Assembly (NCBI GenBank): GCA_032622095.1
Contig: CP136069.1
Location: 19,047,326-19,111,325, forward strand
From: Siphonodentalium dalli
Lineage: Eukaryota > Mollusca > Scaphopoda > Gadilida > Siphonodentaliidae
Length of the DNA stretch: 64,000 nt
Direction: 5' to 3'
The notes beneath the pieces are model-generated. The model was not told where the DNA came from. It was given only the letters and a program-made list of their open reading frames with translations, and searched no databases. Shown in pieces: positions 5,763 to 53,880 of the stretch; positions within the stretch are counted from its first letter, which is position 1; every line of letters begins with the position of its first letter. Made by a program: the position numbers and the translations under genes.

Positions 5763-5811
5763 ATGGTGTTTTTCCATGCGTGTGGACCTAATGAGTGCAT
5801 GGTTGTATCAG
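5763..5811 (+). CDS. Flotillin-like alternative first coding exon 1b
   Basis: Encodes MVFFHACGPNECMVVSG (last Gly split), 49 nt from ATG to the gtaata donor, phase 1. The predicted peptide is the same length as, and one residue different from, that of exon 1c (V/I before SG). Similarity to exon 1c extends about 40 nt upstream and more than 150 nt into the intron (ctgcgatctttgagtctgga, then agtcgcggctcaac), so the two arose by segmental duplication. Position 12 is Cys, where exon 1d has Val and human flotillin-1 has Ala. It would splice to exon 2 almost 28 kb downstream; nothing nearer fits. Confidence 0.75.
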
Positions 5812-10987: not shown

Positions 10988-12101
10988 GAGGCAATTTCGT
11001 CTTTGTTCTAACGTTGGAGATACTTAACATGGTGTTTTTCCATGCATGTGGACCTAATGAATGCATGGTTATATCAGGTATATATTCTATATATATTGTC
11101 AATTTAAATATCACGAATGATTTACGGCACAAATATAAAGGCATTTTAAAGCTGCGATCTTTGAGTCTGGACATTCACTCAGTCGCGGCTCAACTTGAAT
11201 TATTTTCAGTTTTAACAGAATCAAGCAGAACTCACCAGATTGCATGGCTAATTATAATAAGTATAAGTATATAATTAATTGTCAAGACATTGACAATTTG
11301 AATATTTGATATATCATATGTAATATTGGCTTTTATTGCTCATATTAATACATGTATTATTTGTTAGTTTTGTTTTAATATTTGTTTTCGATCTTTAAAA
11401 TTGTAATTCAACCTAGAATTCCCATATTGCTTTGTTGCGCGCGCTCCGCGTGTATATACTGGTGTAGAGATTCTTGTTTCTCCTGGGCGCATGGGGTGTT
11501 TTATTTATAGAATGGGAATTTTTGGGAGGATTAAAAGTCGAACTGCGACCGGAGGCCGAGTCCGGTAAAAGGTGTAGTTGGGAATTTCAATTTCGTTAAA
11601 AACGGTTTATTGTCGTTAATATTATGTGAATAACGTTTATTTTTGGTTTGTGATAAGCTATGCCAATTACAAATAAAAGAAATGAAAAAGATAATGTGTA
11701 AGTCTTATATTTCAACCTCTATAGACATGTTTCGTTCTGGACTGTAGCCCACTGGGAGTGGGGGTTGTGGTCGGAGACGGCCGAGTCGGCCGCCGGTTCG
11801 TTAATTAGCATTATTAGGTGCTGGTAGTTATTGTTATTTTAACGGAAGTCTGAGTTGGTCATTCGCAAAACCAATATATTTTACATTCTATAATTACAAT
11901 CATCATCATGGGTATATAATATATGATCTTGAGCGCGTTACCATTTCTGATATTGCCAATTGGGTTTCTTGCATCTCTGTCAGAAAGCTTTTTGTCGATT
12001 CGCTCTCGACTTCTCAATCTCATTGGACTGCGATAATTTGGACTCTGGATATAAAGTGGTTTCGTGTTGTTGTATATATGGAAGTTCAATTATGACTATA
12101 G
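10985..12101 (+). repeat. Segmental duplication, copy C (carries exon 1c), left part
   Basis: Collinear with copy B at 5,700-7,470. 11,430-11,970 is extra relative to copy B and contains a CpG-rich patch (ttgcgcgcgctccgcg) with no gene recognised. The copy is interrupted after 'gactatagca' and resumes at 19,313. Confidence 0.7.
11029..11077 (+). CDS. Flotillin-like alternative first coding exon 1c
   Basis: Encodes MVFFHACGPNECMVISG (last Gly split), 49 nt, followed by a gtatat donor in phase 1. The upstream in-frame codons (EILN) are leader sequence shared with the exon 1b unit and are not counted as coding. It is the exon most like 1b; only V-to-I changes the peptide. Its promoter region has been replaced beyond about 42 nt by a MITE, so expression may differ from 1b. 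It lies 22.4 kb from exon 2, with the 7-kb foldback and exon 1d between. No exon 2 or 3 follows it locally, so it is an alternative first exon or a stranded duplicate, not a complete separate gene. Confidence 0.75.
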
Positions 12102-16200: not shown

Positions 16201-18637
16201 GCCTCAGCTTGACATAAGGCAGCTATGGCGTACCATATCACCGCATTTGCATAGCAATCCTCACTACTATCACACTACATGACCCATTTTAATCATGCAG
16301 GTCTACATTTGACCCAAAGGGGTTCGGATGTGATATATTCCAGGAACTTGTTATGCCGTTATTCTGAGTAAGTACAGGTAATTACTATTTAGGGATGTAG
16401 CTTATAATCATCAACTATGTGCTTTCAAATCAGTTTCATAATTCCCAGACAGCGAAAACTTAAAAAATCCTATCATGGCATTTTCCAGATACGTGGTGTT
16501 GGTTTTTAAACATACCCGTAATTTTTCACACAATTTCCAATAATAAAAAAAATTGTGCAAAACACATCACTATTTAGACAATTTTCGTCTAGATCCACAG
16601 AAACAGCTGAGAAATTGGGAATAAAATGATCAAAACACGTGGACTCTGAGTCTGATGAGTACCATGTCAGGGTGCGTTCACATAATGGTAAATTTGTCTG
16701 GCAAACCTGCAGGAAAGTCGTCTTAGGGGTGCTCTTATCCCCTATTGTATTATATATATGAGTTGAAGATTTTGAGATACCTATAACAGGTTGTTACAAT
16801 GTGTTTTGCTTTATAAAATTCACAATTTAAATGTCCGGTTTATAGGGGAAAACATCATTATTAATTATTCAGAAAGTTAATTTGTGTCGCAATGGTTATA
16901 GAACTTCATTTCTTTCCAATAATGACATTTTGTGTATTTTTTAATATCGTTTCCATGGTGATAGGTATTTCTCAGGGTATTGGGCTTTTTCTGCAGTTTT
17001 ATCACAACTAGGTTGAAGTACACGTAAGAAGCCATCATAATATGTATAAATTATTACTGTAACCATGCAATGTAGTATCAAATAAATGTTTCAATTCCAA
17101 AATTATCGCATTTTTTGCAAAAATTAAAAGTTTTTACCCCAAAATGGCAATAAAACCTTCATATCCTATATGTGCACCCTAGCTACTACTGGGATAATTG
17201 GGAAATAGTAATCTTTGAAAAAGGTTTTGAGACATCTATAACGGGTTGTCATAATACGCTTTGCTTCATAAAATTACATGCTTTAAATGTCAGCTCTATG
17301 GGAAAAAACATCATTATTTGGCGAAATTTGGACCGTTTCCATGACAACAGCTGAATTGACAAATTATCTGCATATATTGACTAACTAACCTCCAATATTG
17401 ACAAAGTAGCCAAATATAATTGCAAAGAGGCTGCATCTATTGACTAACTAACCACATATATTGATATATTAACCGGATATATTGCCTCAGCTTGACATAA
17501 GGCAGCTATGGCGTACCATATCACCGCATTTGCATAGCAATCCTCACTACTATCACACTACATGACCCATTTTAATCATGCAGGTCTACATTTGACCCAA
17601 AGGGGTTCGGATGTGATATATTCCAGGAACTTGTTATGCCGTTATTCTGAGTAAGTACAGGTAATTACTATTTAGGGATGTAGCTTATAATCATCAACTA
17701 TGTGCTTTCAAATCAGTTTCATAATTCCCAGACAGCGAAAACTTAAAAAATCCTATCATGGCATTTTCCAGATACGTGGTGTTGGTTTTTAAACATACCC
17801 GTAATTTTTCACACAATTTCCAATAATAAAAAAAATTGTGCAAAACACATCACTATTTAGACAATTTTCGTCTAGATCCACAGAAACAGCTGAGAAATTG
17901 GGAATAAAATGATCAAAACACGTGGACTCTGAGTCTGATGAGTACCATGTCAGGGTGCGTTCACATAATGGTAAATTTGTCTGGCAAACCTGCAGGAAAG
18001 TCGTCTTAGGGGTGCTCTTATCCCCTATTGTATTATATATATGAGTTGAAGATTTTGAGATACCTATAACAGGTTGTTACAATGTGTTTTGCTTTATAAA
18101 ATTCACAATTTAAATGTCCGGTTTATAGGGGAAAACATCATTATTAATTATTCAGAAAGTTAATTTGTGTCGCAATGGTTATAGAACTTCATTTCTTTCC
18201 AATAATGACATTTTGTGTATTTTTTAATATCGTTTCCATGGTGATAGGTATTTCTCAGGGTATTGGGCTTTTTCTGCAGTTTTATCACAACTAGGTTGAA
18301 GTACACGTAAGAAGCCATCATAATATGTATAAATTATTACTGTAACCATGCAATGTAGTATCAAATAAATGTTTCAATTCCAAAATTATCGCATTTTTTG
18401 CAAAAATTAAAAGTTTTTACCCCAAAATGGCAATAAAACCTTCATATCCTATATGTGCACCCTAGCTACTACTGGGATAATTGGGAAATAGTAATCTTTG
18501 AAAAAGGTTTTGAGACATCTATAACGGGTTGTCATAATACGCTTTGCTTCATAAAATTACATGCTTTAAATGTCAGCTCTATGGGAAAAAACATCATTAT
18601 TTGGCGAAATTTGGACCGTTTCCATGACAACAGCTGA
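16072..18637. repeat. Two apparently identical 1,283-bp direct copies (right arm)
   Basis: 16,072-17,354 and 17,355-18,637 match everywhere I compared them by eye, at a constant offset of 1,283. The unit begins inside the tandem array and ends at 'gacaacagctgaa'. The left arm has only one equivalent. Either a very recent duplication or an assembly error. Confidence 0.85.
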
Positions 18638-23521: not shown

Positions 23522-23567
23522 ATGGGGTTCGAAACATGTGGTCCAAACGAGGTTATGGTGGTTTCGG
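23522..23567 (+). CDS. Flotillin-1-like first coding exon 1d
   Basis: Encodes MGFETCGPNEVMVVSG (last Gly split), 46 nt, then a gtaaaa donor in phase 1, matching the phase of exon 2 at 33,460. It is the first exon nearest to exon 2 (9.9 kb). With Val after GPNE it differs from the Cys of the other three. Its leader and intron share nothing with 1a-1c, so it is an older split and probably the ancestral or main first exon. It alone has Gly at position 2, as flotillin-2 does (where Gly2 is myristoylated), but whether this peptide is a substrate is unknown. Confidence 0.85.
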
Positions 23568-24053: not shown

Positions 24054-24919
24054 TCAGTAGCCTGTTTTGAGCATCTCCTTCTGAAAGTCTTCCAGGGAGG
24101 TGCAAGCCACTGCCTCTTCAGATAGGGCATTCCACATCCGTATGGCCGACGGAAAGAAGGAGTATTTATACGCATCTACTCGCACATGATGCTGAGTGTA
24201 GCGCTGGTTATGGCCTCGTGATCTGGCGTTGGTTTTGCTCTTCACGAGTGGAGTAGCTTGATTTGTGACGACCAGTCCTTTGATACACTTGAAGAACATA
24301 GACAAGGTGGCATCTTTTCGTCTTTCTTCAAGTGATTTCCATCCAAGGTTTTTCACCATCGTTCTTGGGCTGCTCCTCCATTGGTAGTTGTTCTGGACCA
24401 TTCTGGCTGCTCTCAGTTGAACTTTCTCCAGTTTCTCGATGTTTTCCGCTGTGTGTGGGTTCCATACAGTCGATGAGTACTCTACTATTGGACGCACCAT
24501 GGCATTGTAACACTGCTCCTTGATGTTGGGGCTGCAGTTGGTTAGGTTTCTTCCAATGAAGGCTGTTGTAGAATTTGCCTTTTTACAGATCTTAGAAACA
24601 TGGTCATTCCAACTAACATCCTCCTTGATGTTGACACCGAGATACCTTGCAGAGTTCACACATCGTAGTGGTTTCCCATGAATGGTGTACTGGGTTTCCA
24701 AGACATTTTGTTTCCTTTTGTTTGTTATACGTATGATCTCGCATTTGTCCGCATTGAATTCCATCTGCCACTTCTTTTCCCAAAGTTGAAGGTTGTCAAG
24801 GTCTTCCTGGAGCAGTTTAGCGTCTTTTTTTGATTTTACTGTCCTGTACAACAAGCAGTCATCTGCAAACAAGCGGGGTGTAGCTGTCACACATTTGGGA
24901 AGGTCGTTGATGTAGATAA
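24054..24919 (-). pseudogene. LINE RT, C-terminal half (catalytic FADD)
   Basis: After the MITE the minus-strand frame continues the polymerase: LFADDCLLYR carries the catalytic aspartates, followed by NADKCEIIRI, ARYLGVNIKEDVSWNDHV, VRPIVEYSSTVWNPH, a REAARMV-type helix (QLRAARMVQNNY) and the terminal MWNALSEEAV..TSLEDF..ML. The spacing is that of Jockey/CR1-clade APE-type LINEs. The stop is at 24,054. Together with the pieces upstream it was one ORF2, interrupted by an insertion of 983 bp at the codon boundary region after GPLLFL. The base order across the insertion, minus one TAA, resumes the expected IYIND motif, so the break is clean. Non-functional. Confidence 0.88.
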
Positions 24920-25902
24920 GGCCTAAAAAAAAATTATCCGTGTTTCTGCTAACCCGACCGACCCATGTTCAATACCCCCGACCCTAATTTTTGCGTAATT
25001 TTATTTTTTTCCTGGACCACGGTGATTTCTTTGCATTGGCCTTTCCAAATATGCAAAATTATCTTCTATTTTCTATTACTTGCAGTCATTAATTTAATTC
25101 AATGAGTCATTAGCCTAATTAACTATGAAAATCATGTTCACAAAACCCATCAAACCGGAGTTAATTGGAAACAAACTTCCAAAAATGCGAATTTACGGAC
25201 TACCTCGAAAATAGGGAACATTAAACAAACATAAAACGATGTCTTTTGGTCCATGTTTGAGCCTATACAGACCTTTAACTTTGATATGTGAAGGGGTGTT
25301 GGTTAATATAACTTAAATGAGCTGGGACATATATATGACAAGTGATTGTTTCTAATTTTGTTCAAATAAAATATTGTTTAAACTAAGTGAATGTTTCATA
25401 GAATTTCTCAACATTCTGCCGTTAAATATGAGTGATTGTTAGCCAGTAAAAGGTGTATTAGCATTTTGGGTGTACATGTATTTGAGAAATAGCTGAATTG
25501 TAAGATTATATACATGAATATTATTACTTCAACAGAAATTTTCACTGTATGAAACCTACAAATTGTAAAATTAAGCCAATTTGTAATGGGGGCCTTTTAT
25601 ATGTAAATTTATGTCTTAATACATATATTTTAATACTGAATAAAATTATTCGACATTATGAATGTTATCCATCCATTCTATACCCTGTATTATAGGCTGT
25701 ATACATTATCCAATTATCTATATATCCACTCTCAATGTTTGTCAAAATGTTCCTTCCCTTTATTTAGGAATACAATTTAAGACTGTATATGACCACTGGG
25801 TTGTCCAAATAGCATAAATACAGCTTGGAACCTGTGATCGGGGTGTGAACAAAAAATAAAGAGGTCCCGTTAGCAGAAACACGGTATAATTTTTTTTAGG
25901 CC
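24920..25902. mobile_element. 983-bp MITE inserted in LINE RT (TSD TAA)
   Basis: The ends GGCCTAAAAAAAAATTAT and ATAATTTTTTTTAGGCC continue as inverted 'ccgtgtttctgctaac'. TAA flanks both sides (24,917-24,919 and 25,903-25,905), and removing element plus one TAA restores the RT reading frame. Relatives at 42,035-42,856 and 42,938-44,023, and a partial copy at about 33,762, share the TIR style (ggcc(t/a)aaaaaaa then a ...gtttct or ...ccgctaac block). No transposase. Confidence 0.85.
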
Positions 25903-27025
25903 TAAGGAACAGTAATGGTCCCATAACTGTTCCTTGTGGTACTCCTGATGTTACAGGTTTTTCTTCAGAGAGATGACCTTCTAAGATGACTCTCTGGGTT
26001 CTGTTTGAGAGAAAATCCTTTATCCATTCCAAGATGTTGTCATTTATGCCATGTCCTATGCACTTTTGTAGTAATCTCTGATGCGGTACCTTGTCGAATG
26101 CCTTGGAGAAGTCGAGTAGTGCAGCGTCGATCTGTTTGCCTTTAAATAGTCCTCTTGCTAAGTCATCCACCGTCAAGAGAAGTTGAGTTTCACATGATCT
26201 GTTCTTTCTGAAACCATGTTGAAAGTCTGTTAACTGGTCGTTTGATTCCAGATAACTGATTAGATGGTGGTGAATTATATGTTCTAGAAGTTTGCTGCAG
26301 ATTGATGTTAAAGATACTGGACGGTAGTTTGATGCAGATGTTTTATCTCCTTTCTTGTTCAATGGAGTGATATATGCCTCTTTCCAGTCAGTTGGTATTT
26401 TCCCTTGGTTGCTTGAGGATTGAAAGAGTTTTGTCAGCATTGGTGTAATTTCTGAAGTGACTGTTTTTAGTAGTCGTCCAGGAATACCGTCAGGTCCAGT
26501 GGCCTTATGTATGTTGATGTTATTTAGCAATTTAAGTACTCCATTTTCGGTGACGACTATTTCGTCCACTTTATTCACCGGGATGGGCTCAGCTGGTATA
26601 TTTGTGGTGTCTTCTGTGGTGAATACTGATGAAAATTGCTGATTGAGTATCTCTGCCTTTGTGTTGGCGTCGCTGTATATAATTCCTCTTCTCTTCAGTG
26701 GTGACACTCCAGAACTATCTTTCCTTTTACTCTTGATGTAAGTCCATAGTCTCTTTGATGTTCTCCTCCCATCGTTTTCAGTCACTAGATCCATGATGTA
26801 TTTGGACTTGGTTGCCTTGCATTGTTTGCGACTTTGATTTTTCAGTTGTTTGAAGCGTTCCCAGTCATGTTTATTCTCTGTTTTTTTGGCTTTATTATAA
26901 GCCCGATGTTTCTTTTTTGACAGGCGCTTGATTTCTCCATTAATCCATGGTTGATGGAATCTGGTGGTGCTCATTTTGGATGGTACTAGCTGGAGAAGTT
27001 GAATGCAGATGTCCTTGAAAGCCGA
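25903..27025 (-). pseudogene. LINE RT, N-terminal half
   Basis: The minus-strand frame contains, in order, a basic linker (KRLSKKKHRAYNKAKK), KATGPDGIPGRLLK, YRPVSLTSICSKLLE, QHGFRKNRSCETQL, ALLDFSKAFDKVPH and GVPQGTVMGPLLFL, the fingers/palm motifs of a non-LTR reverse transcriptase. The first catalytic Asp is in LLDFSKAFD. It is in the same frame as the endonuclease piece upstream, separated by one TGA at 27,026-27,028 where Trp is a likely ancestral codon. It ends abruptly at the MITE. Confidence 0.88.
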
Positions 27026-27028
27026 TCA

Positions 27029-27719
27029 GAGTGTTTCAATATCGTCTTTCACTGAGTAGTTGGATCTGAAATGTTCTGTCTGGATCCTTGCTGCTAGAGA
27101 TAACTCAGTCATGTCTGCCTTGGACCAGAGATATATCTTCCTTCTTGTTGGTGCCTTGTATTGTGCTGTGATGTTTGATGTCACAAAGACAATGTCATGA
27201 TCACCTAATCCCGGAGCTGGTTTACATAGGTTTATCAATGATGGTCTGTTGGTGAAGAAGGTGTCTAGGATGTTATTGCCTCGTGTTGGGAAGGTGACGA
27301 TCTGTTTCATTCCACAATCTTGCATCGTTTCGATGAAAACATTATTGATGACCTTCTGATATTGGTTTCCATCTACTGTTAGGTTTTCCCAGTTTATGTC
27401 GGGGAGGTTAGTGTCGCCTGCAATCCAGATGGTGGCATGCCTGTTTTGCTTGACTAACTTGGCTATGGCCTCACACAAGTGTTTACTGTACTCAGCGTTG
27501 TCGTCTGTCGGTCTGTAAATGGAAATAACCACAAGCTCCTGTTTGTTTTTGCAACATATCTTTACTGCTGCTAACTCAAGTCTGTTGTTCGTCTCTGAGT
27601 TTTCTATCTGGATCTCATGGCATGGGATTGATGATTTAGTGGCAATGATGACACCTCCATAGCCATCAGATCTGTCTTTCCTTGCAGCTATGATGTAACT
27701 ATCTGGCAGGACTTCTGCC
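27029..27719 (-). pseudogene. LINE AP-endonuclease domain, N-terminally cut
   Basis: The minus-strand frame reads AEVLPDSYIIAARKDRSDGY, GGVIIATK, later VVISIYRPT, WIAGDTNLPDINW and PGLGDHDIVFV. These match the central and C-terminal motifs of the APE-type endonuclease that nicks target DNA in LINEs (GD.N.P...W and SDH; here the Ser of SDH is Gly). The N-terminal catalytic N and E motifs are missing because another MITE begins at 27,720. Confidence 0.85.
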
Positions 27720-30400: not shown

Positions 30401-30403
30401 TCA

Positions 30404-31564
30404 TACACTGAGAACAATAAACTCACCGTGAACACTGATAAAACTAAATGTGTGGTGTTTAGAAGTAGGAAAACAAAAACTTTACCAGACTTTCACATTG
30501 GAAATCAAAAGTTGGAAATTGTTAATGAATACAATTATCTTGGAATTAAATTTAGTAATACGGGTAGATTCTCACATGCAATGGAAGAATTGAGTGCTAA
30601 AGGACTCAAAGCAATGCATTCTTTATTTAACGCATGTACAAACGACGCACCGATTCCACTAGTGACTTCTGTGAAACTCTTCGATAGATTAATTAAGCCG
30701 ATATTGTTATATGGTAGCGAAATATGGGGTGTGGAAATAACCACTAAAAATCACGACCGCCTTCCATGTGAGAAGGTACACATAAAATATTGTAAGCGGT
30801 TACTCGGAGTCGGCAGATTTTCTTCGAACAACGCGGTTCGCGCCGAGTTAGGGAGCCATCCATTATTTATTGACGTGGCATGCAGACTTTCATCTTATGT
30901 AATTAAGATAATTTCACGGTCGGACTGTAATCTGCTCCGTAATGCTGCGTTGGAACAACAAGTGGCATCGGTTAAGAAATCAATCTTCAAAACGGCAGAA
31001 TCACTGGGGTGGAATATTGCAGACCTAAACAATCCGGGTCCAGTTCTGAGTCAATTCAAAAGAAATCTTATTGAAGATTATTATATATATTTCAGACAGA
31101 GTCTCACTGATGAATGCTCAAAAACGGGAAGTAATAAATTACGAACATACCGACTTTTCAAACTTAAGTACGAAATAGAACCTTATCTTCTTCACACACC
31201 ATCAATAGAAAATAGAATCGTTTTTACTAGACTGCGTATAAGTAATCATAAACTGGCTATTGAAAAGGGACGCCACACCCAACCACCGACGGCATTGGAA
31301 CAAAGACTATGTATATTTTGTTCCGATGATGCTATTGAAGATGAAAAACACTTTCTTTTGGAATGTAGTGCTTACCGCACACCGCGGCTCGAACTAATAA
31401 CTCTTATGAAGACACAGTTCCCAGACTTTGAAAACATGACACAAACTGAACAGCTTGTCAAAATCCTATCCAACAATATTTCAAATTCATGCACTCCAAT
31501 ATGTCATATAATCCGAAAATTATTTTCCGCACGCGATGAGCTTCGCCTCATAAGCAATGAATAA
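30404..31564 (+). pseudogene. 5'-truncated LINE ORF2 C-terminus
   Basis: The open frame begins within the RT thumb (ENNKLTVNTDKTKCVVFRS, YNYLGIKFSNTGRF, RLIKPILLYGSEIWG) and ends with a C-terminal zinc-knuckle-like block CIFC..(D)..DEKHFLLECSAYR. This is the usual end of several animal LINE ORF2 proteins. The frame is intact to its TAA at 31,562, but all catalytic and endonuclease parts are missing, so it is a classic 5' truncation at about 30,404. A different family from the LINE at 24-27.7 kb. Its intactness suggests a fairly young insertion. Confidence 0.85.
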
Positions 31565-33459: not shown

Positions 33460-33535
33460 GATGTTGCAAAGGGAGATCAGAATATATTGTCGGAGGACGG
33501 GTATTTGTGTGGCCTGTCATACAGACTATAGAAAG
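33460..33535 (+). CDS. Flotillin exon 2 (constitutive, single copy)
   Basis: 76 nt between a 'tactttcag' acceptor and a gtaatt donor; phase 1 in, phase 2 out. With the G from exon 1 it reads GCCKGRSEYIVGGRVFVWP then VIQTIE-R. Human flotillin-1 has the same length here with the GGRVFV.P.IQ.I.R core, so identification is strong. It forms the start of the SPFH domain, which in flotillins lies against the membrane. Two features are odd: the Cys at the flotillin-1 palmitoylation site (Cys34) is Val, and a Cys-Cys pair sits at the start, where flotillin-2 has its palmitoylated Cys19/Cys20. I found no second copy, so all first exons would have to share this one. Confidence 0.92.
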
Positions 33536-45019: not shown

Positions 45020-45836
45020 GATATTTTAATTTAATGCTGCACCAGCGCAGCTCCCATCATGATAGGGTTAATAATGGACTTTCTGGCTGTAGCATATTAA
45101 CCCATTCACCCCTGAATGAATTCTCCCATTCAGCCTTAAAAGAATGCTTTGGAATGGTCTATTCTTCATGCAGGATGTTCTGATAATATAAGCAGACGAC
45201 TGGCAGATTAACATCCTATTTGAATCCCATTAATTTATTTGCAGGTATGTTCCGCCAATAAGTTCAGCAAACTGTTGAATTCTACAGCTGAACATTCCTC
45301 CAAATGAATGAATGGGAATCAGAGTAACCACAAGTATCCAGTTATCTAAGGGCAGGCCTTAACATTCGATGAGAATCACCAAATCGATTCTCGTAATGAT
45401 TCTCACGAAACTTTTCAATTTCACTGCTTTACGACTAACTTGATTCAGCATTTGATTCTCGCAAAACTAAATTTATTTTGAGCCCTGCTAAGGGCCAACC
45501 ATTAGACGTTATTAGAAATGTTTTATCCCGTCAGTTACAAAAGTTTACATTGGAATGGTCTATTATTCATTTGGAGGGGTGTGTAGGAAAATGTAGCAGA
45601 CAACAGACAACAAAAAGATAGTACAAGTGCAGAAGGATTCTTATACATTGGGGGGAAATGGTTAGATAATAAGTTCAACAAATGACCTATTGTCGTTTGT
45701 TGAACTTATTATCTGAATATTTCCTAAGGGAATTGCTCGTCAATGAGTATTTAGTATAAAATTTTCCAATTAATTTAACAATTGCTTGTTTAATTGTAAT
45801 ACTGTTTGAATGTTTCATTTCCGCTACCCTTGGCAG
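45020..45836. other. Intron upstream of exon 3a; no gene
   Basis: Contains 'ctgcaccagcgcagctccca' repeat (45,031), an inverted 'gagaatc' cluster (45,369-45,412) and a hairpin at 45,660-45,715 with arms aataagttcaacaaa / tttgttgaacttatt. 'ctcgtcaatgagtatttagt' at 45,738 resembles 'ctcgtcaatgcgtatttagt' after exon 3e. Confidence 0.55.
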
Positions 45837-45927
45837 GCTGCCATTGAATACATTGACACTGTGCATTGAGACTCCGTGTGTTTACTCCAAACGTGGAATT
45901 GGACTATCAGTAACTGGTATAGCACAA
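45837..45927 (+). CDS. Flotillin alternative exon 3a
   Basis: 91 nt between 'cccttggcag' and a gtgagt donor, phase 2 in and 0 out. It reads (R)LPLNTLTLCIETPCVYSKR then GIGLSVTGIAQ. Human flotillin-1 has an equal-length segment (..LNTLTL....VYT..GVPISVTGIAQ). The segment is two beta-strands and a turn of the SPFH domain. It is the most divergent of the five copies, with Pro after the first Leu, two extra Cys, and Leu at the SPFH 'I' position. The frame and both splice sites are intact. It is first in the array and 12.3 kb from exon 2. Confidence 0.9.
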
Positions 45928-46064
45928 GTGAGTGGGACTCAACATGTACCAAATTCTAGTTCTCTTTCTAGACCAGCGTATATGTTTTCAGGAAACATGT
46001 GCTATCTCCGCATGCCTAGTCTTTATACCAGTCATTCTCGTGGAAATATAGCAAATACATGGCC

Positions 46065-46530
46065 CATACAAACTGTGTGCCTGTCATTTGCAGAATGACG
46101 TCCCCCAGAGTGTGAATTTAGTGACGCAATCCCACACAGTGCGCTGGCATCACCAAATTCACCCTCTGGGGACCTCATTCTGCATGGCCTCACGCTATGG
46201 GAGACATACTAGTAGACTCAGATTGTACTAAGTTCCCAAATGTTGAATATTGTGATGTACACCCATTGGGAACCTCAATTATGCAATGTGTCATCTGCCA
46301 ATTTGGGGATATATTGGTAGAAAAACTAAACTAAAAAAGAAATATAATCTATGTGAAGAATATTTATTTTATTTTAAAGAAACTTTCCAGAGAATATGAG
46401 GCCTAAGCAAAATGAGGTCCCCAGAGGGTGAATTTACTGATGCTTGCCTGCTATGCGGGATAGCGTCTCTAAAGTCACCCTCTGGGGACCCCATTCTGCA
46501 AATGACAGGCACACTAAACTCAGGCTTGGG
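46065..46530. mobile_element. Double-hairpin MITE, full copy
   Basis: Hairpins near 46,090-46,180 and 46,410-46,500. The middle part has 'gtgatgtacacccattggga' and 'acctcaattatgcaatgtgt'. Lies 140 nt after exon 3a. Confidence 0.75.
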
Positions 46531-46654
46531 ACCTTGGTGTAAATACATTGCCCATAGTTTAGAAGTACAGTCAAAAGTTTTGAGTCCATACCAACCTATA
46601 ATTAGCGCTTTTATGTGAAATCTATTCAGAGGCCAAGAATATGAACTAATGTCG

Positions 46655-46815
46655 CTACCAGAACATATATAGAGGATATGAAATGAGTGTTTCTCTCATA
46701 TGATATTTATGAAACGAGTCTAAGAATTTTCAGTTTTCTCGAGCCTCCGGCAAGAGAAAACTGAAAATTCGTGACGAGTTTCATAAATATCATATGAGAG
46801 AAACAAGAATTACAT
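46655..46815. repeat. Foldback: tctcatatgatatttatgaa...
   Basis: Arms 'tttctctcatatgatattta' / 'taaatatcatatgagagaaa' with inner pair 'ttttcagttttctc'/'gagaaaactgaaaa'. The following 500 bp (to about 47,330, ending in 'gattgagtcatatgataaat') may belong to one larger element; 'tacatattctattt' occurs at 46,811 and 47,050. Confidence 0.65.
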
Positions 46816-47349
46816 ATTCTATTTATCATATGACACCTATAAATTGATTATGATGTTCAAAACACACACAAATCACTAAATAGCTATATGACATCGGCAG
46901 CAAAAGGTTAATGTGACGTCACTTCATTGCACCGGAAGCCCAATTACACCTGGGGAACTAGCAGAAATAATATGCACGCGAAGATATAGTGCGCTATTCT
47001 GTTCTCAGTTTGTGACATTATATCGTATGTTTGTTAGATAAATACGAATTACATATTCTATTTTCGTATAACAATGTCCAAAACTATATATTTCAAGATT
47101 ATAATTTCTAGAATTTCGGCATCGCGTTGATTGAGGCGCACGAATTTGACCTGCATTTAGTTAGAGATGCGGCTCGGCCCAGGCTGCCATTCAGCCAATC
47201 AGAACACACTTTTTGTCAACAAACCAATCAAATTATCGGAAGGTGATATGAACTAGTAGTTCATATGAAATTGATTTATGACATACTTTCCAACGTAAAT
47301 AATGATTGAGTCATATGATAAATATATATATATATAATAATTGAGTCAT

Positions 47350-47754
47350 AAACTATTACAAAAAATAATGTCCAAATTTCATGACATATCCATAATTTGT
47401 GGAGCTATCTTGACAAGGGGGCTCTTTTAATATACTGGTACATCTATAAAAATCAGTGAATCAAATTTCATAGACAATTAGTGCCCAGAGATAATTATTC
47501 ATTGTAAACTGAAGCTTCTAAACCCATTTCAGGTCCTTTACACCCTTAGTATATATCGGTAAAGTAGGTCCACATTTAGTTTCTATTTTGGTCTAATAAA
47601 CCCTGGTTTTGGTGATAACAAAATTACCAAAATTACCAAAAGCCAGATAACTTCAAGCTTGACACCAATTATGGTAAATAGCTGGCATTTCATGTGGTGG
47701 CACCTAATATTAGATGTATACAAAGCATGACTGGGATAAAGATCAGCACTGAGT
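47350..47754. other. No gene seen
   Basis: AT-rich intronic DNA between repeats. Confidence 0.45.
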
Positions 47755-47755
47755 A

Positions 47756-47925
47756 CACTAATGCCCTAAATAATCGACTCCTTAACCACAGCAGAATTAT
47801 GGGTAATTTTTCAGGATTTAATCTGATTTAATGGGAAATATGGCTTGTTGGGCAACAAGCCATATTTCCGACTAAATACTGAAAAATTACCCATAATTCT
47901 GCTGTGGTTAAGGAGTCCATTACTG
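47756..47925. mobile_element. Mariner-type foldback MITE, copy 5 (internally deleted)
   Basis: Arms are shorter at the centre ('ggcttgttgggcaacaagcc'); the outer left end is degenerate. Confidence 0.75.
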
Positions 47926-48059
47926 TAAGACCTGGTGTAGATCTGGGACTGGAATTTCGTCCATGGAGTTTATAGCTTGGCTGCATCATGGATACTGTAG
48001 CAAACCTTGGTACATTTTATTGTGAATGTCAAAATAAGTTGCTCGTAAAACTGAGACCG

Positions 48060-48360
48060 GAAATGAACAAATGGCTGCCTGTCATTTTTTTATTTTGCAG
48101 AATCATTTTGTCATTATTTTTCTGCTAATTTTTTTCCAGCCAGTGTAATGTCCCTTGACTTTCCCAATATTAGTTAATGTTGGAATTTTTTTTAAAAACA
48201 TTCAGAAACATTTCGAAACTTAAAATATCATAGGATATATGGCATCTTAAGGCTTGCTTAAAAACCGCTATGGATTTTGTTCCGATATTTGTTTTCTACT
48301 TGGAAACATTTTTCAACCTCATCATTATGACACTGGTTGCTCTGGTACATGTAATCACAA
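48060..48360 (+). pseudogene. Relic of an exon-3 unit (exon decayed)
   Basis: The DNA here matches the intron in front of exon 3c: 'cttaaaatatcataggatat', then 'atggcatct.aaggcttg.tt', 'aaaaacc.ctatggatt', 'ccgatattt..ttttct'. Where the exon should start (about 48,305-48,345) I can find no AG acceptor in register and only weak traces (ctcatcattatgacactgg). So the array once had at least one more member, now lost. A double-hairpin MITE at 48,391 has cut its 3' side. Confidence 0.6.
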
Positions 48361-48390
48361 TAAACACAGTCAAAATTACACGTGAGAGGA

Positions 48391-48785
48391 GCACGCCTGA
48401 GTTTAGTTTGTCTGACGTTTGCAGAATGAGGTCCCCAGAGGGGGAATTTAGTGACGCTATCTCACATAGTGGGCTATCATCACCAAATTCACCCTCTGGG
48501 GACCTCATTATGCTTAAGCCTCATCTTCTGGGGAGTAGCTATATTAACATTGTTTTTAGTTACTTTTTCCCTTCTGTGATGTTTCTATATCCCCTAATTT
48601 GCAGAAGATAAAATGCATAATCAAGGTGACTAATGGGTGAATATCACCAACTTCAACTTCAATATGATCCTGGATCTCCCATAGTAGTGGAGGCCTAAGC
48701 AGAATGAGGTCCAAGAGTGGGATAGCATCACTAAATTCACCGTCTGGACCTCTGCAAATTACAGACACACTATAATCAGGCTTGA
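48391..48785. mobile_element. Double-hairpin MITE, full copy (inverted order)
   Basis: First hairpin 48,424-48,510, second shortened at 48,700-48,750. Ends 'cctgagtttagtttgtctga' and 'cagacacactataatcaggc'. Confidence 0.75.
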
Positions 48786-48837
48786 GTTGGAGGAGGGGAA
48801 GGGCTTTGTATTCATTGAAAATTATTTTTATATAGAT

Positions 48838-49343
48838 TGCAATGCCCTAAATAATCGACTCCTTAACCCTTTACCCAACAAACCGGCCAAAACCGGCCAA
48901 ATAAAGCTTCAACAGCCTAAAATATCTTCGGTCTGTCTCAATAGAACCATACAAATATGGGTATCATTGGAACCGGCTCCTTGAACACATTGTGATAGTT
49001 ACAGTTATACCCTGTGCCAATGCATTCTCTTATATATGCGAGTCGACCATAGGTCGCCTCGCATATATAAGAGAATGCATTGGCCCAAAAAAAATCTTTT
49101 TTTAACACTTTTTACCATTTTTTCTTACAATCTTTAACAATTTTATAATTTTTAATGTGTTAAGCCAATGCATTCTCTTATATATGCGAGGCGACCTATG
49201 GTCGACTCGCATATATAAGAGAATGCATTGGCACAGGGCCCTTCTGTTGGGTAAAGGGTTAACCACAGCAGAATTATGTGTAATTTTTCAGGATTTAGTC
49301 CGAAATATGGCTTGTTGCTATTCATCGGAAAGCTCTCACTGAG
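48838..49343. mobile_element. Mariner-type MITE (left arm only) interrupted by piggyBac-type MITE
   Basis: 'aatgccctaaataatcgact' + 'ccTTAA' is followed by a complete piggyBac-type element (48,863-49,262), then 'TTAAccacagcagaattatg' continues the same arm. Intact copies of the arm read ccttaaccacag, so exactly one TTAA was duplicated. The right arm is missing after 'gctctcactgag'. The half-copy ends about 85 nt before exon 3b. Confidence 0.85.
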
Positions 49344-49428
49344 GCTCACTGATAAGTCCTCACAGTATATTACGATTTCTTATCCAATAGTGATAATTTT
49401 GTCATATCTGCTGCTCTTGTACATGCAG

Positions 49429-49519
49429 GCTTCAACTGAGTACCATTACGCTATTGATTGAGAGCCAAAATGTCTACACCAAACAGGGTGTCGGTATATC
49501 CGTAACTGGCGTCGCCCAA
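49429..49519 (+). CDS. Flotillin alternative exon 3b
   Basis: 91 nt, acceptor 'gtacatgcag', donor gtgagt, phases identical to 3a. It reads (R)LQLSTITLLIESQNVYTKQ then GVGISVTGVAQ. The framework residues (L.L.T.TL.IE...VY.K.G.G.SVTG.AQ) are kept, and changes concentrate at residues 10 and 13-20 of the segment. No stop or splice defect. Upstream lies the half mariner-type arm; downstream, at 49,618, a double-hairpin MITE. Confidence 0.9.
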
Positions 49520-49617
49520 GTGAGTCGACACTCTACTTACCTAGAGCTCAATGTACCTCTGCATTGTGGCTCGAAGTAGTCTCAGATTTTAGTCCAAATA
49601 AGTTGCGCAAATCAAGT

Positions 49618-50030
49618 TCAAGCCTGAGTTTTGTGTCTGTCATTTGCAGAATGAGGTCCCTAGATGGTGAATTTAGTGACGCTATCCCGCATAGCGGGCT
49701 AGCATCACTAAATTCACCATCTGGGGACCTCATTCTGCATGGCCTCATTGGCGATATAGATGCAGATTTAATTTCCCAAATGTTGAATATTGTGATATAC
49801 ACCTATTGGGAACCTCGATTATGCAATGTGTCTTCTGCCAATTTGGGTATAGAGAAACCAAACTAACAAAGAAATTGAATCTGTGAAGAAGTTTCTATAG
49901 AAAATTGTTAATAAGGATACTTTTCAGAGAAGATGAGGCATAAGCAGAACGAGGTCCCCAGAGGGTGAATTTTGTCATGCTAGCCCTCTTCTGCATTCTG
50001 CAAATGACAGGCACCTTATTCTCAGGTCTG
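49618..50030. mobile_element. Double-hairpin MITE, second hairpin deleted
   Basis: Hairpin 1 is near perfect (49,649-49,738). Hairpin 2 retains only one arm (49,950). Ends 'caagcctgagttttgtgtct' and 'caggcaccttattctcaggt'. Confidence 0.75.
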
Positions 50031-50512
50031 GTCAAGTTACATTTTTGGAAATTTAATTTTATATGTGTTTTCCTTTCAAAAGAAAGAAAATAATTATCCA
50101 GTCCCACTGAGTCCCAGGGATTTTCTGATGCCAGTGATAAATTGATAATCCGATCAAAGTCAGATCCTATGTTTGAAGCAACTTGTTTTGACTATAAATT
50201 GTCAGATGTCTGCATTTATTTGGCTTATGTTTCATAGTTATGCATGACATTTATGTCTGTTGTTCGTGCATGCTGCACATACATCCTAAATTTCTTCCTG
50301 GCTTGCTTTCTCTTTTGTGTCCTATTTCTCTTTTTTTTTGCACAAATATTTTTTTGACAGCAAAAATGACTTTACGTACCAGTATATTGGAAACTAATGA
50401 TGCAGAAATATTAAAAACTTAGCCTCCAGGTGAATTTTTTTTTTAGATGTGGTTGTCACTAAATCTCATCATTTAACCCTTCCATGACTGGAGCTGCACT
50501 GGCACCTGATCT
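50031..50512. other. No gene seen
   Basis: Intronic AT-rich DNA; the end (ctgcactggcacctgatctt) belongs to a small repeat also at 29,527 and 45,012. Confidence 0.5.
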
Positions 50513-50681
50513 TTAATAACCCACTTAATTTTCAGGTCACCTATTTTTTTTTTTATAGTGCCATGATATATATATGGTTTTAATAATTGATCAAAATACT
50601 ATAATTCATCACCATTTGAAACGTCTGCGTCTCAGAAGATGCCCATAGAGAAATTGAAAACAGCTGAAATCATAGAAAGAT

Positions 50682-50728
<47 letters not shown>

Positions 50729-51010
50729 TTATGGCTCTCAGAATGCAACAGAATTCAAAAATGTATTTTCAATGGAAGGGGAATAACTCTATATCTTAAG
50801 ATATAGAGTTATTCCCCTTCCATTGAAAATAATAAAACTTGAGCACAGAACACAAGTCGATATCTCAACAAAAACAACATGTTCTCAGTTTATTACACCG
50901 AATAAACTGATAATTCAATGTTTCCGAGCTTCCTCTTTCAAATGGTTAAATAATATGGCATATATTTTTTATAAATTATCTAGGGGTTCGAAAATTAAGT
51001 GGGCCTTTAA
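50513..51010. mobile_element. MITE (AGGCCCACTTAATTTTCGA family), full, inverted
   Basis: Ends degenerate on the left (aacccacttaattttc) and good on the right (ttcgaaaattaagtgggcct + ttaa). It carries a poly-C run of about 45 nt (50,683-50,727) and an internal palindrome 'tatatcttaagatata' joining two copies of 'ggaaggggaataactcta'. It lies inside the 'gatctttaatgctgcacc' repeat at a TTAA. Confidence 0.75.
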
Positions 51011-51387
51011 TGCTGCACCTTCAGGAAAGGGTTAATCAGTCAATCAATAATTAATTAATAACTAAATTGCAAGTCAGGATGTATTTAGGCATATAATTTA
51101 TGGTTTCTTTTTAGTTTGGTACATTGTAATATAGCTCTAGGATTGGCTTTTGGGTACTGGTAAGGTATACATGTATATTAAATTAAAATGTGATTTATAA
51201 TACATGTCCATTTTCATTTCTTCACAATTATTTTTGTACAGTTTATATATCTACGTGTAATCAGGTTTTGTTCTAGTGTATTTTCCCTCCACTTGGCATT
51301 TCCCTGGATTCCCAATATCAGCTAATGATGAAAATTATTTTTAAAATGTTCAGAAACATTTTTAAACTTAAAATATCATAGGATATA
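51011..51387. other. Intron before exon 3c; no gene
   Basis: Its last ~120 bp match the relic unit at 48,060. Confidence 0.5.
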
Positions 51388-51551
51388 CAGTAATGCCCTA
51401 AATAATCGACTCCTTAACCACAGCAGAATTATGGGTAATTTTTCATGATTTAGTCGGAAATATGGCTTGTTGCATCCATCTGAAAGCTCTCAGTGAGAGC
51501 TTTCCTATGAATGGCAACAAGCCATATTTCCAATTACTTAAGGCATTACTG
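51388..51551. mobile_element. Mariner-type foldback MITE, copy 7, 86 nt before exon 3c
   Basis: TA-flanked (ataTAcag...ctgTAaat); the right arm has an internal deletion, 'ccgactaaatcctgaaaag' region missing. The homologous site at about 48,233-48,240 (aggatatatggcatc) has no insertion. Confidence 0.85.
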
Positions 51552-51637
51552 TAAATATGGCATCTCAAGGCTTGGTTAAAAACCACTATGGATTATTTTT
51601 TCCCCGATATTCTTTTCTAATTTGCATATTATTTCAG

Positions 51638-51728
51638 ACTAAGCTTGAATACAATAACATTGACGATAGAGAGTGGAAATGTTTATACCCAAATGGGTGT
51701 GCCAATCATCGTAACCGGAATAGCACAG
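51638..51728 (+). CDS. Flotillin alternative exon 3c
   Basis: 91 nt, acceptor 'tattatttcag', donor gtatgt, same phases. It reads (R)LSLNTITLTIESGNVYTQM then GVPIIVTGIAQ. With GVPI before VTGIAQ it is the copy closest to human flotillin-1 and may be the ancestral exon. Ile replaces the usual Ser before VTG. Frame and sites intact. The junction codon is AG+A, whereas the other four use AG+G (all Arg). Confidence 0.92.
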
Positions 51729-52089
51729 GTATGTAGAGGCACCACATCTCATATAGGCTCACAGGTCTCTGAGGTGCTTGTCTAACCATAAATGCATCTC
51801 CGAGACTCAAAATGGCCTGTTTTCCTGGTTTTCCAGGTTTTTTCTTGCTTTTTTTTTATTGCTTTTTTTTTATTATTATATTTTTTTGGGGGGAAAATGA
51901 TATACATATAGTGAAGTTAACCCCTATAATGGATCTTGTATGGAAGTCAGGACATCAAACAGCTGATATGGACTATCAAATTGATTTAATTTTTACTTTC
52001 AAGTCATCTTTTATTTAAAAAAATATAAAAAAAGATAAAATGAATTATAGACCATGAATAGAAAGAATTTCCTTAAAACATTATGGCCA
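51729..52089. other. Intron; no gene
   Basis: T-rich tract at 51,835-51,890; nothing else recognised. Confidence 0.5.
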
Positions 52090-52835
52090 GACACCAATCT
52101 GAGTTTAGTGTGCCTGTCGTTTGCTGATTGAGGTCCCCAGAGGGTGAATAATTTAGTGATGTTATCCCGCACAGCGGGCTAACATCACCAAATTCACCCT
52201 CTTGTTACCTCATTCTGCATGGCCTCATCTGCTATGGGAGACATAGACTCAGATTGAAGTTCCCAAATGGTGAATATTGTGATGTGCACCCATTGGGAAC
52301 CTCGATTATGCAATGTGTTGTCTGCCAATTGGGGATATACAGAAACTAAACTAAAAAAGAAATAGAATCTAAGTCTCTATAGAAGTTTGATAATAAAGAA
52401 ACTTTCCAGAGAAGATAGGCCTGAGGGTGAATTTAATTACGCTACCCCACACAGCGGGCTAGCATCATTCTGCCTCTAAGGGCCTCATCTCCTCTCAAAA
52501 GTATCATTATTATCAAATTAACAATCTTTTTAGTTTCTTTCGGAACTTCTGTAGAAAGTTTCTTGTTATTTTTTAGTTTAGTTTCTTTATATCCCCAAAT
52601 TGGCAGACTACACAGTGCATAATCGAGGTTCCCAATGGGTGTACATCACCATCTTCACCAGTTGGGAACTTAAATTTCCGTCTAGGTCTCACATAAATGT
52701 AGCAGATGAGGTCATGCAGAATGAAATTCCCAGTGGATAAATCTGGTGATGCTAGCCAGGCTATGCGGTCTAGCATCACTAAATTCACCCACTGGATACC
52801 TCGATCTGCAAATGTCCAGCAACATATTTTGAGAC
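52090..52835. mobile_element. Two double-hairpin MITE copies in head-to-head layout
   Basis: 52,097-52,495 is a full but degraded element. 52,495-52,830 carries the middle part and one hairpin in the opposite orientation (compare 'gtttctttatatccccaaat' with 'ttggggatatacagaaac'). The pair forms a large imperfect inverted repeat. Confidence 0.65.
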
Positions 52836-52911
52836 CTGGTCAAATCAGTTTGTTGATATCCTGATGCTGGAAGGGATTTGTAATAACACCTGATTACACG
52901 GCTGTGTTGTA

Positions 52912-53107
52912 CAGTAATGCCCTAAGTAATCGACTCTTTAACTACAGCAGAATTATGGGTAACTTTTCAGGATTTAGTCGGAAATATGGCTTGTTGCCAT
53001 TCATCAGAAAGCTCTCCCTGAGCAACAAGCCATATTTCCGACTAAATCCTGAAAAGTTACCCATAATTCTGCTGTAGTTAAAGAGTCAATTACTTATGGC
53101 ATTACTG
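52912..53107. mobile_element. Mariner-type foldback MITE, copy 8, 57 nt before exon 3d
   Basis: Target TA duplicated: 'gtgttgTA' + element + 'TAgcttacagctgg'. The empty site 'gtgttgTAgcttacagctgg' is present before exon 3e at about 53,494-53,513. The hairpin arms are near perfect. Confidence 0.92.
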
Positions 53108-53164
53108 TAGCTTACAGCTGGTTAACTTCATAATCACGTAAAAAAAAACTTTGACACCTTTCAG

Positions 53165-53255
53165 GCTCTCGTTGAATACTATCACCTTAACTATCGAAAG
53201 CCACAATGTTTACACCCTGAAGGGAGTGGGCATTTCAGTAAATGGTATAGCACAA
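53165..53255 (+). CDS. Flotillin alternative exon 3d
   Basis: 91 nt, acceptor 'cacctttcag', donor gtaagt, same phases as the others. It reads (R)LSLNTITLTIESHNVYTLK then GVGISVNGIAQ. It differs from 3e by three bases; two change residues (T/I at residue 10, N/T in the V(T)G motif) and one is silent. The Asn replaces a Thr that is kept in the other four copies and in human flotillin-1, so this copy may be starting to lose function, or it may be a real variant. A hairpin-forming MITE sits close before its acceptor. Confidence 0.87.
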
Positions 53256-53428
53256 GTAAGTAAATTGTAGTTAGCGATTACGGAACTACTTGTCAATGCG
53301 TATTTAGTAAAGAAAGGATTAAAAGTCTCTTTCTCATGAATCTCTACTCTGGCTGTTGCCCGTAGAGATCATATTCCACCAGTACAAAACCTGGGAACTT
53401 TATTGAAGGTTTGACAGGGAACCTTATG

Positions 53429-53880
53429 TAAAATCAGTTTGTTGATGTTCTGATGCTGGAAGGGATTTATAATAACACCTGATTACACGGCTGTGTTGTA
53501 GCTTACAGCTGGTTAACTTCATAATCATGTAAAAAACTTTTGACACTTTTCAGGCTCTCGTTGAATACTATCACCTTAATTATCGAAAGCCATAATGTTT
53601 ACACCCTGAAGGGAGTGGGCATTTCAGTAACTGGTATAGCACAAGTAAGTATAGTAGACAGGTTTTGCAAACTCATAGTTAGCGATTACGGAACTACATT
53701 GTACTCGTCAATGCGTATTTAGTAAAGAAAGCATTAAAAGTCTCTTTCTCATTAGATCATGCCATGAATCTCTACTCTGGCTGATGCCCGTAGAGATCAT
53801 ATTCCACCAGTACAAAACCCGGGAACTTTTTTGAAGGTTTGACAGGGAACCGTATCAAGTCGAAAAAATAACATGGAGAT
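53429..53880 (+). repeat. Tandem exon-3 duplication unit, copy E
   Basis: Carries exon 3e and continues past the point where copy D stops, into the foldback at 53,750-54,240. Copy D therefore ends inside what was that foldback's left arm. Confidence 0.8.
53554..53644 (+). CDS. Flotillin alternative exon 3e
   Basis: 91 nt, acceptor 'cacttttcag', donor gtaagt. It reads (R)LSLNTITLIIESHNVYTLK then GVGISVTGIAQ, with the conserved VTG. It lies 389 nt after exon 3d, from which only 298 nt of intron separate it. If both were spliced in, the 182-nt total would shift the frame. It is the last copy I can find; the next constitutive exon (expected to begin V-K-I/V) lies beyond 64,000. Confidence 0.9.

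Follow-up and report, generated by a model that had tools for sequence, protein, structure and literature searches.

Candidate arrays of alternative first exons and of five mutually exclusive third exons in a scaphopod flotillin-1 gene

Tandem mutually exclusive exons are a well-known class, represented by exons 4, 6, 9 and 17 of insect Dscam1 and by Mhc, 14-3-3 zeta and NALCN, where adjacent homologous exons share length and phase. Flotillin is an unexpected gene for them. The flotillin-1 gene (FLOT1) of the scaphopod mollusc Siphonodentalium dalli, analysed here in a 64-kb window (the whole stretch of DNA studied: contig C9, CP136069.1, positions 19047326-19111325, forward strand, from a 2.23-Gb genome in nine contigs), has five adjacent homologous copies of exon 3 of equal length and phase. 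As in the Dscam1-type arrays, the copies sit between the constant exons of a single gene and, taken together, are constrained at the protein level. FLOT1, however, encodes a membrane-attached scaffold, whereas the Dscam1-type arrays reside in receptor, channel or motor genes; moreover, the FLOT1 copies have a length of 1 mod 3, so that, unlike in those arrays, wrong combinations would also be blocked by stops. Early stops from wrong combinations are also a property of FGFR2 exons IIIb and IIIc, although FGFR2 has two copies and FLOT1 five; exclusion in FGFR2 is reportedly helped by nonsense-mediated decay, in work attributed to Jones in 2001. At the 5' end of the gene the likeness is to clustered alternative first exons with a common 3' part, as in the clustered protocadherins of vertebrates and the 5' cassettes of chelicerate Dscam (PMC4835542), in which several first exons, each with an ATG and a donor, are joined to common exons. 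The four candidate first exons of FLOT1 code for 16-17 residues only and, unlike those clusters, are accompanied by a second, internal array. We consider it probable that this is a single FLOT1 gene with alternative first exons and a mutually exclusive exon-3 array, with early stops and message decay as a backstop.

The array comprises five 91-nucleotide (nt) segments on the forward strand, at 45837-45927 (copy 1, LPLNTLTLCIETPCVYSKRGIGLSVTGIAQ), 49429-49519 (copy 2, LQLSTITLLIESQNVYTKQGVGISVTGVAQ), 51638-51728 (copy 3, LSLNTITLTIESGNVYTQMGVPIIVTGIAQ), 53165-53255 (copy 4, LSLNTITLTIESHNVYTLKGVGISVNGIAQ) and 53554-53644 (copy 5, LSLNTITLIIESHNVYTLKGVGISVTGIAQ). A first-pass annotation of this DNA had reported the five segments as bounded by AG and GT, entered in phase 2 and left in phase 0, and coding for the same 30 flotillin residues, and had put the exon-2 donor directly after position 33535; these coordinates and translations are confirmed. 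All five copies lie between exons 2 and 4, and in each the first nucleotide (G or A) completes an arginine codon with exon 2. Each is preceded by AG, and the donors, in order gtgagt, gtgagt, gtatgt, gtaagt and gtaagt, all match 8 of 9 consensus places when scored on the sequence.

What marks the array out is the common flotillin sequence. The splice and reading-frame pattern by itself is unremarkable: AG, 91 nt and GT occur in this spacing at 184 places on the forward strand of the window, 43 of them open in the required phase. The annotation had also described an invariant frame around a variable middle, and the alignment bears this out, with 14 of 30 columns invariant. Human flotillin-1 (structures 9bq2 and 9l3g) is co-linear with exons 1-10 of the scaphopod gene, exon 3 corresponding to human residues 41-70, a segment of which we take human FLOT1 to have a single version. 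Copies 1 to 5 are identical to the human segment at 16, 17, 20, 19 and 20 of 30 residues, respectively; copy 3 retains its GVP, and copy 1 has two cysteines that the other copies lack. Copy 5, the sole copy compared with solved structures, matched residues 41-70 of Flotillin-1 (9bq2_B, E 2.6e-5; also 9l3g) and, weakly, Flotillin-2 structures (E 0.78). An nhmmer profile of the five copies returned exactly these five from 94 kb, at E 6e-21 or better (scores that are partly a matter of construction, the profile having been built from the same copies), and the next match stood at E 2.7. This gap argues against a sixth or decayed copy, and none was found by nhmmer in the 94 kb.

The constant part of the gene was delineated by tblastn with a human FLOT1 sequence, which located exon 2 and four candidate first exons in the window and exons 4-10 in the 30 kb downstream, a set that stops short of the last coding exon. 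Exons 1-10 are collinear on a single strand and cover SPFH, coiled-coil and C-terminal parts. Exon 2 is present in a single copy (33460-33535, phase 1 in and 2 out). In window numbering continued downstream, the remaining exons, likewise on the forward strand, fall at 65813-65956 (exon 4), 68489-68608 (exon 5), 70078-70173 (exon 6), 70740-70892 (exon 7), 73515-73742 (exon 8), 75104-75241 (exon 9) and 81759-81923 (exon 10); all seven have lengths divisible by 3 and are bounded by AG and GT. In exon 2 and in exons 4-10 the donors agree with the consensus at 7-8 of 9 places, and every FLOT1 exon examined has splice sites of the ordinary GT-AG type.

Five segments of this kind could also belong to separate genes, each with its own copy, and it is here that the whole-genome searches bear. 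A query with exons 1-3 gave 12 matches, of which 9 lay in the window (exon 2, every copy of exon 3, and all first exons but one) and 3 were weak matches elsewhere (E 0.97 to 2.1); since this query overlooked the first exon at 23522, other short copies elsewhere could escape it likewise. The 348-amino-acid product of exons 4-10 gave 17 matches, 7 in FLOT1 and 10 in two FLOT2-like copies on contig C4. No second set of FLOT1 exons was found by either query, and the FLOT1 probe had no exon-4-like match between the exon-3 copies. Separate genes are thus ruled out within these searches, as the first-pass annotation had supposed in treating the copies as parts of one gene rather than of separate downstream gene bodies, and the locus has the appearance of a single FLOT1 gene that carries an exon-3 array, not of five genes. 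Of the relevant Pfam families, Flot (PF15975) has one match genome-wide, inside the FLOT1 gene and below the family cut-off; the SPFH family (PF01145) has 7 genomic matches, none of them in the FLOT1 gene.

The consequences of exon choice were followed in silico by joining exon 2, each of the 32 possible subsets of the exon-3 copies, and exons 4-10; the second first-exon copy stood at the 5' end throughout. The frame stays open in 5 of the 32, namely the single copies. The other 27 meet a stop at codons 67-110, with at least six known junctions 3' of it. The annotation had argued from frame that one copy only could be used per messenger RNA; its conclusion agrees with these products, but the argument from length fails for one class, for 91 is 1 mod 3 and four copies total 364 nt, again 1 mod 3, which restores the frame. 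Four-copy messages are blocked because the shifted copies contain stops, not because of their length. Each message would then take exactly one exon-3 copy. Because skipping or multiple inclusion gives an early stop, single-copy use would be enforced by splicing choice together with nonsense-mediated decay of wrong products.

With the 4/5 pair counted as one, the copies are old. Any two of copies 1, 2, 3 and 4/5 have 29-36 differences in 90 nt; dN is 0.17-0.44, and dS runs from 1.2 to values too large to estimate, so that silent sites are saturated or nearly so. A purpose-written codon model, fitted to the five copies on the best of three topologies, gave an array-wide omega of 0.074, indicative of purifying selection; setting omega to 1 on all branches was worse by a 2 delta lnL of 47.9. 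When the observed substitutions were placed neutrally 2000 times, 9 of the 10 pairs had amino-acid differences as few as the real ones in no more than 0.15% of placements, and a stop arose in 54-70% of trials for each old pair. Branch lengths in the codon model are saturated, and some single-branch fits reached the upper bound. Tested singly, the branch of copy 3 rejects neutrality (2 delta lnL 8.6), alone among the four branches tested.

Several results weigh against a mutually exclusive exon-3 array. Omega of 1 is not rejected on the branches of copy 1 (2 delta lnL 1.7), copy 2 (1.9) or copies 4/5 (0.03, with a free omega of 0.79), owing either to low power or to relaxed constraint; the pair of copies 4 and 5 is the only one without a signal of selection (P 0.60); and a scan of 8 comparisons, described below, turned up no 10-mer with a complement in the flanks of every copy. 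The branch tests, the divergence of copy 1, which of the five is the least like human FLOT1, and the general knowledge that exons can be duplicated without being used would suit a gene with one real exon 3 (copy 3 likeliest, or the 4/5 pair) and old, near-silent tandem duplicates around it. We nevertheless hold that explanation to be improbable. Although silent sites between the old copies are near saturation, all five have kept the reading frame, the exact length, the AG/GT sites and 14 of 30 residues, where neutral change would have introduced stops in more than half of the trials; neutrality is strongly rejected for the array as a whole; and no decaying copies lie alongside in the 94 kb. 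The array has thus been conserved as coding exons, though the single-branch tests do not prove that each copy is in use today.

Copies 4 and 5 separated recently: they differ at 3 of 90 nt, and one of them is, to judge by this near-identity, a recent duplicate. Among copies 1-4, the 31-36 differences in 90 nt rule out haplotype or assembly duplicates. A stretch read twice was also considered for the 4/5 pair and set aside: the two stand in tandem in one contig, and a 196-nt element is present in the flank of copy 4 and absent from that of copy 5. The pair is therefore read as a tandem duplication, though an assembly error is still conceivable.

How one copy might be chosen was approached through the introns. 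Those between the copies measure, in order, 3501, 2118, 1436 and 298 nt, and inter-copy introns of this length exceed what simple steric exclusion allows. PMC6071210 gives two-exon clusters as the limit of the steric and U2/U12 mechanisms, which five copies surpass. Exclusivity might instead be set by competing RNA structures, a docking site and selectors as at exon 6 of insect Dscam, rather than by splicing factors and decay. The scan for such sites took 10-mers with one mismatch allowed, in four 1-kb regions on two sides (hence the 8 comparisons), against 250-nt flanks; it is coarse and confined to a single species, longer-range or bulged sites being outside its scope. Since no docking site common to the five copies emerged, the scan lends no support to the RNA-structure mechanism that is usual in large arrays, and no docking or selector element was found at FLOT1, unlike in the Dscam1-type systems. 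In two of the 8 comparisons, k-mers matching three or four copies did outnumber those in shuffled sequence (38 and 2; 8), which counts against an absence of structure, as does a palindromic element just upstream of copies 2, 3 and 4. Yet each of the 48 excess k-mers matches this element at two or more of its sites upstream of copies 2, 3 and 4, and the element is dispersed over the nine contigs and missing at copy 5. Candidate docking/selector pairs were rejected on that ground, their signals all running through a dispersed repeat, and we judge competing RNA structures to be unlikely as the basis of exclusivity.

The palindromic element (family D2, with 13 copies at 39270-62873) is about 200 nt long, with ends CAGTAATGCC and GGCATTACTG and TA at both. 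As it has matches on all nine contigs, the palindromes just before copies 2, 3 and 4 seem to be members of a dispersed repeat family and no splicing code. Upstream of copy 4 the 196-nt element occupies 52912-53107, and the equivalent place at copy 5 is a single TA; this empty site indicates that the element most likely entered after copies 4 and 5 had split. Of 20 pair/side comparisons in the intron flanks of the exon-3 copies, 7 scored higher than any of 40 shuffles. Four of the seven (copies 1-2 downstream; 2-3, 2-4 and 3-4 upstream) are read, by position, as common dispersed repeats, and two belong to the recent 4/5 duplication. The seventh, the upstream comparison of copies 1 and 5, is a 28-nt match between 45729-45757, before copy 1, and 53282-53310, after copy 4, possibly a trace of old tandem duplications. 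A second family of short palindromic repeats, D5 (CAGAGGGTGAATTTAGTGATGC...GCATCACTAAATTCACCCTCTG), occurs at 14 places between 35234 and 59385, among them 140-420 bases downstream of copies 1, 2 and 3, and an uninterrupted run of 45 C occupies 50683-50727 in the intron between copies 2 and 3.

The four first exons constitute a second array, absent from the first-pass annotation. Their coding parts lie on the forward strand at 2046-2094 (copy 1, MVFFNTCGPNECMVVSG, from the ATG to the donor TCAG/gtacga), 5763-5811 (copy 2, MVFFHACGPNECMVVSG), 11029-11077 (copy 3, MVFFHACGPNECMVISG) and 23522-23567 (copy 4, MGFETCGPNEVMVVSG). All four are in frame with exon 2, which is in frame with every exon-3 copy, and no additional first exon was found in the 30 kb upstream. 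Copies 1-3 read MVFF(N/H)(T/A)CGPNECMV(V/I)SG; copy 4 starts with Met-Gly and lacks the cysteine that they carry. When copies 1-3 are compared pairwise, two of the three comparisons have their best upstream match in the 45 nt that immediately precede the ATG. Copies 1 and 2 match further upstream and copies 2 and 3 downstream also; the flanks of copy 4 have no match to copies 1-3 above shuffles. No convincing polypyrimidine-AG acceptor was seen by eye upstream of the first exons, an absence that points to separate starts of transcription and not to internal exons. Each message would start at one of the four first exons, which probably have promoters of their own.

If so, the two choices need not be independent: each first exon might be tied to a fixed exon-3 partner, giving a few linked isoforms in place of a free 4 x 5 combination. 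The apparent want of upstream acceptors and the match just before the ATG, a pattern that duplication of a first exon would produce, are compatible with such linkage, and promoter-linked splice choice occurs in other genes. All four first exons, however, pass via the same exon 2, and inspection of the sequence brought no pairing of particular copies to notice, no dedicated test having been run. Linkage is accordingly a possible but doubtful arrangement. With free choice at both arrays, up to 4 x 5 = 20 FLOT1 isoforms would arise, varying solely in the N-terminal SPFH1 region; the oligomerising wall and the C terminus would stay constant.

The annotation had located the array in the membrane-facing SPFH segment. 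That placement is in keeping with the structure of the human flotillin cage, in which the N-terminal SPFH1, according to PMC11260169, penetrates one membrane leaflet through a surface rich in hydrophobic residues, tryptophan and cysteine; the same paper states that some surface cysteines of SPFH1 are palmitoylated and that flotillin-2 is myristoylated on Gly2. Exons 1-3 (residues 1-72) would lie within SPFH1, judging from their N-terminal position. Variants could enter the same FLOT1/FLOT2 cage and alter its lipid- or partner-facing surface, for example in cysteine content, and exon choice could conceivably tune lipidation. That some 20 FLOT1 isoforms build mosaic FLOT1/FLOT2 cages with a cell-type- or stage-specific membrane face, differing for instance in the number of cysteines open to lipidation, is a tentative proposal, which we rate below even chance. 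Flotillins are usually regarded as invariant raft markers. Were the proposal true, raft scaffolds would bear a splice code. An array that swaps the membrane-facing region alone would also allow a direct test of what the SPFH1 sequence does, as isoforms 30 residues apart could be compared for lipid, partner and curvature preferences.

In the titles and abstract openings searched, a search that left subscription papers and annotation outside, no flotillin exon array is described, and words that start with 'isoform', 'splic' or 'exon' are absent from the main text of a review on flotillins (PMC11775717). Predicted isoforms of such kind may already be present in the annotation of related animals.

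The multiplied exons are present in FLOT1 and absent from FLOT2 within the 30 kb examined at one copy of the latter. There, with human FLOT2 as probe, FLOT2 has a single first exon, a single exon 2 and a further exon that combines the exon-3 and exon-4 parts. The two FLOT2-like genes lie on contig C4 at 67.51 Mb and 68.17 Mb, with about 660 kb between them; exon for exon their match scores are equal, and they are either a recent duplication or an assembly duplicate. Elsewhere in the window, open reading frames (ORFs) at 24054-27718 (reverse strand) and 30401-31564 (forward strand), between the last first exon and exon 2, resemble by eye the endonuclease and reverse transcriptase of non-LTR retrotransposons. 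An ORF of 95 amino acids occurs twice on the reverse strand, at 16506-16793 and 17789-18076, 1283 bases apart, pointing to a recent local duplication.

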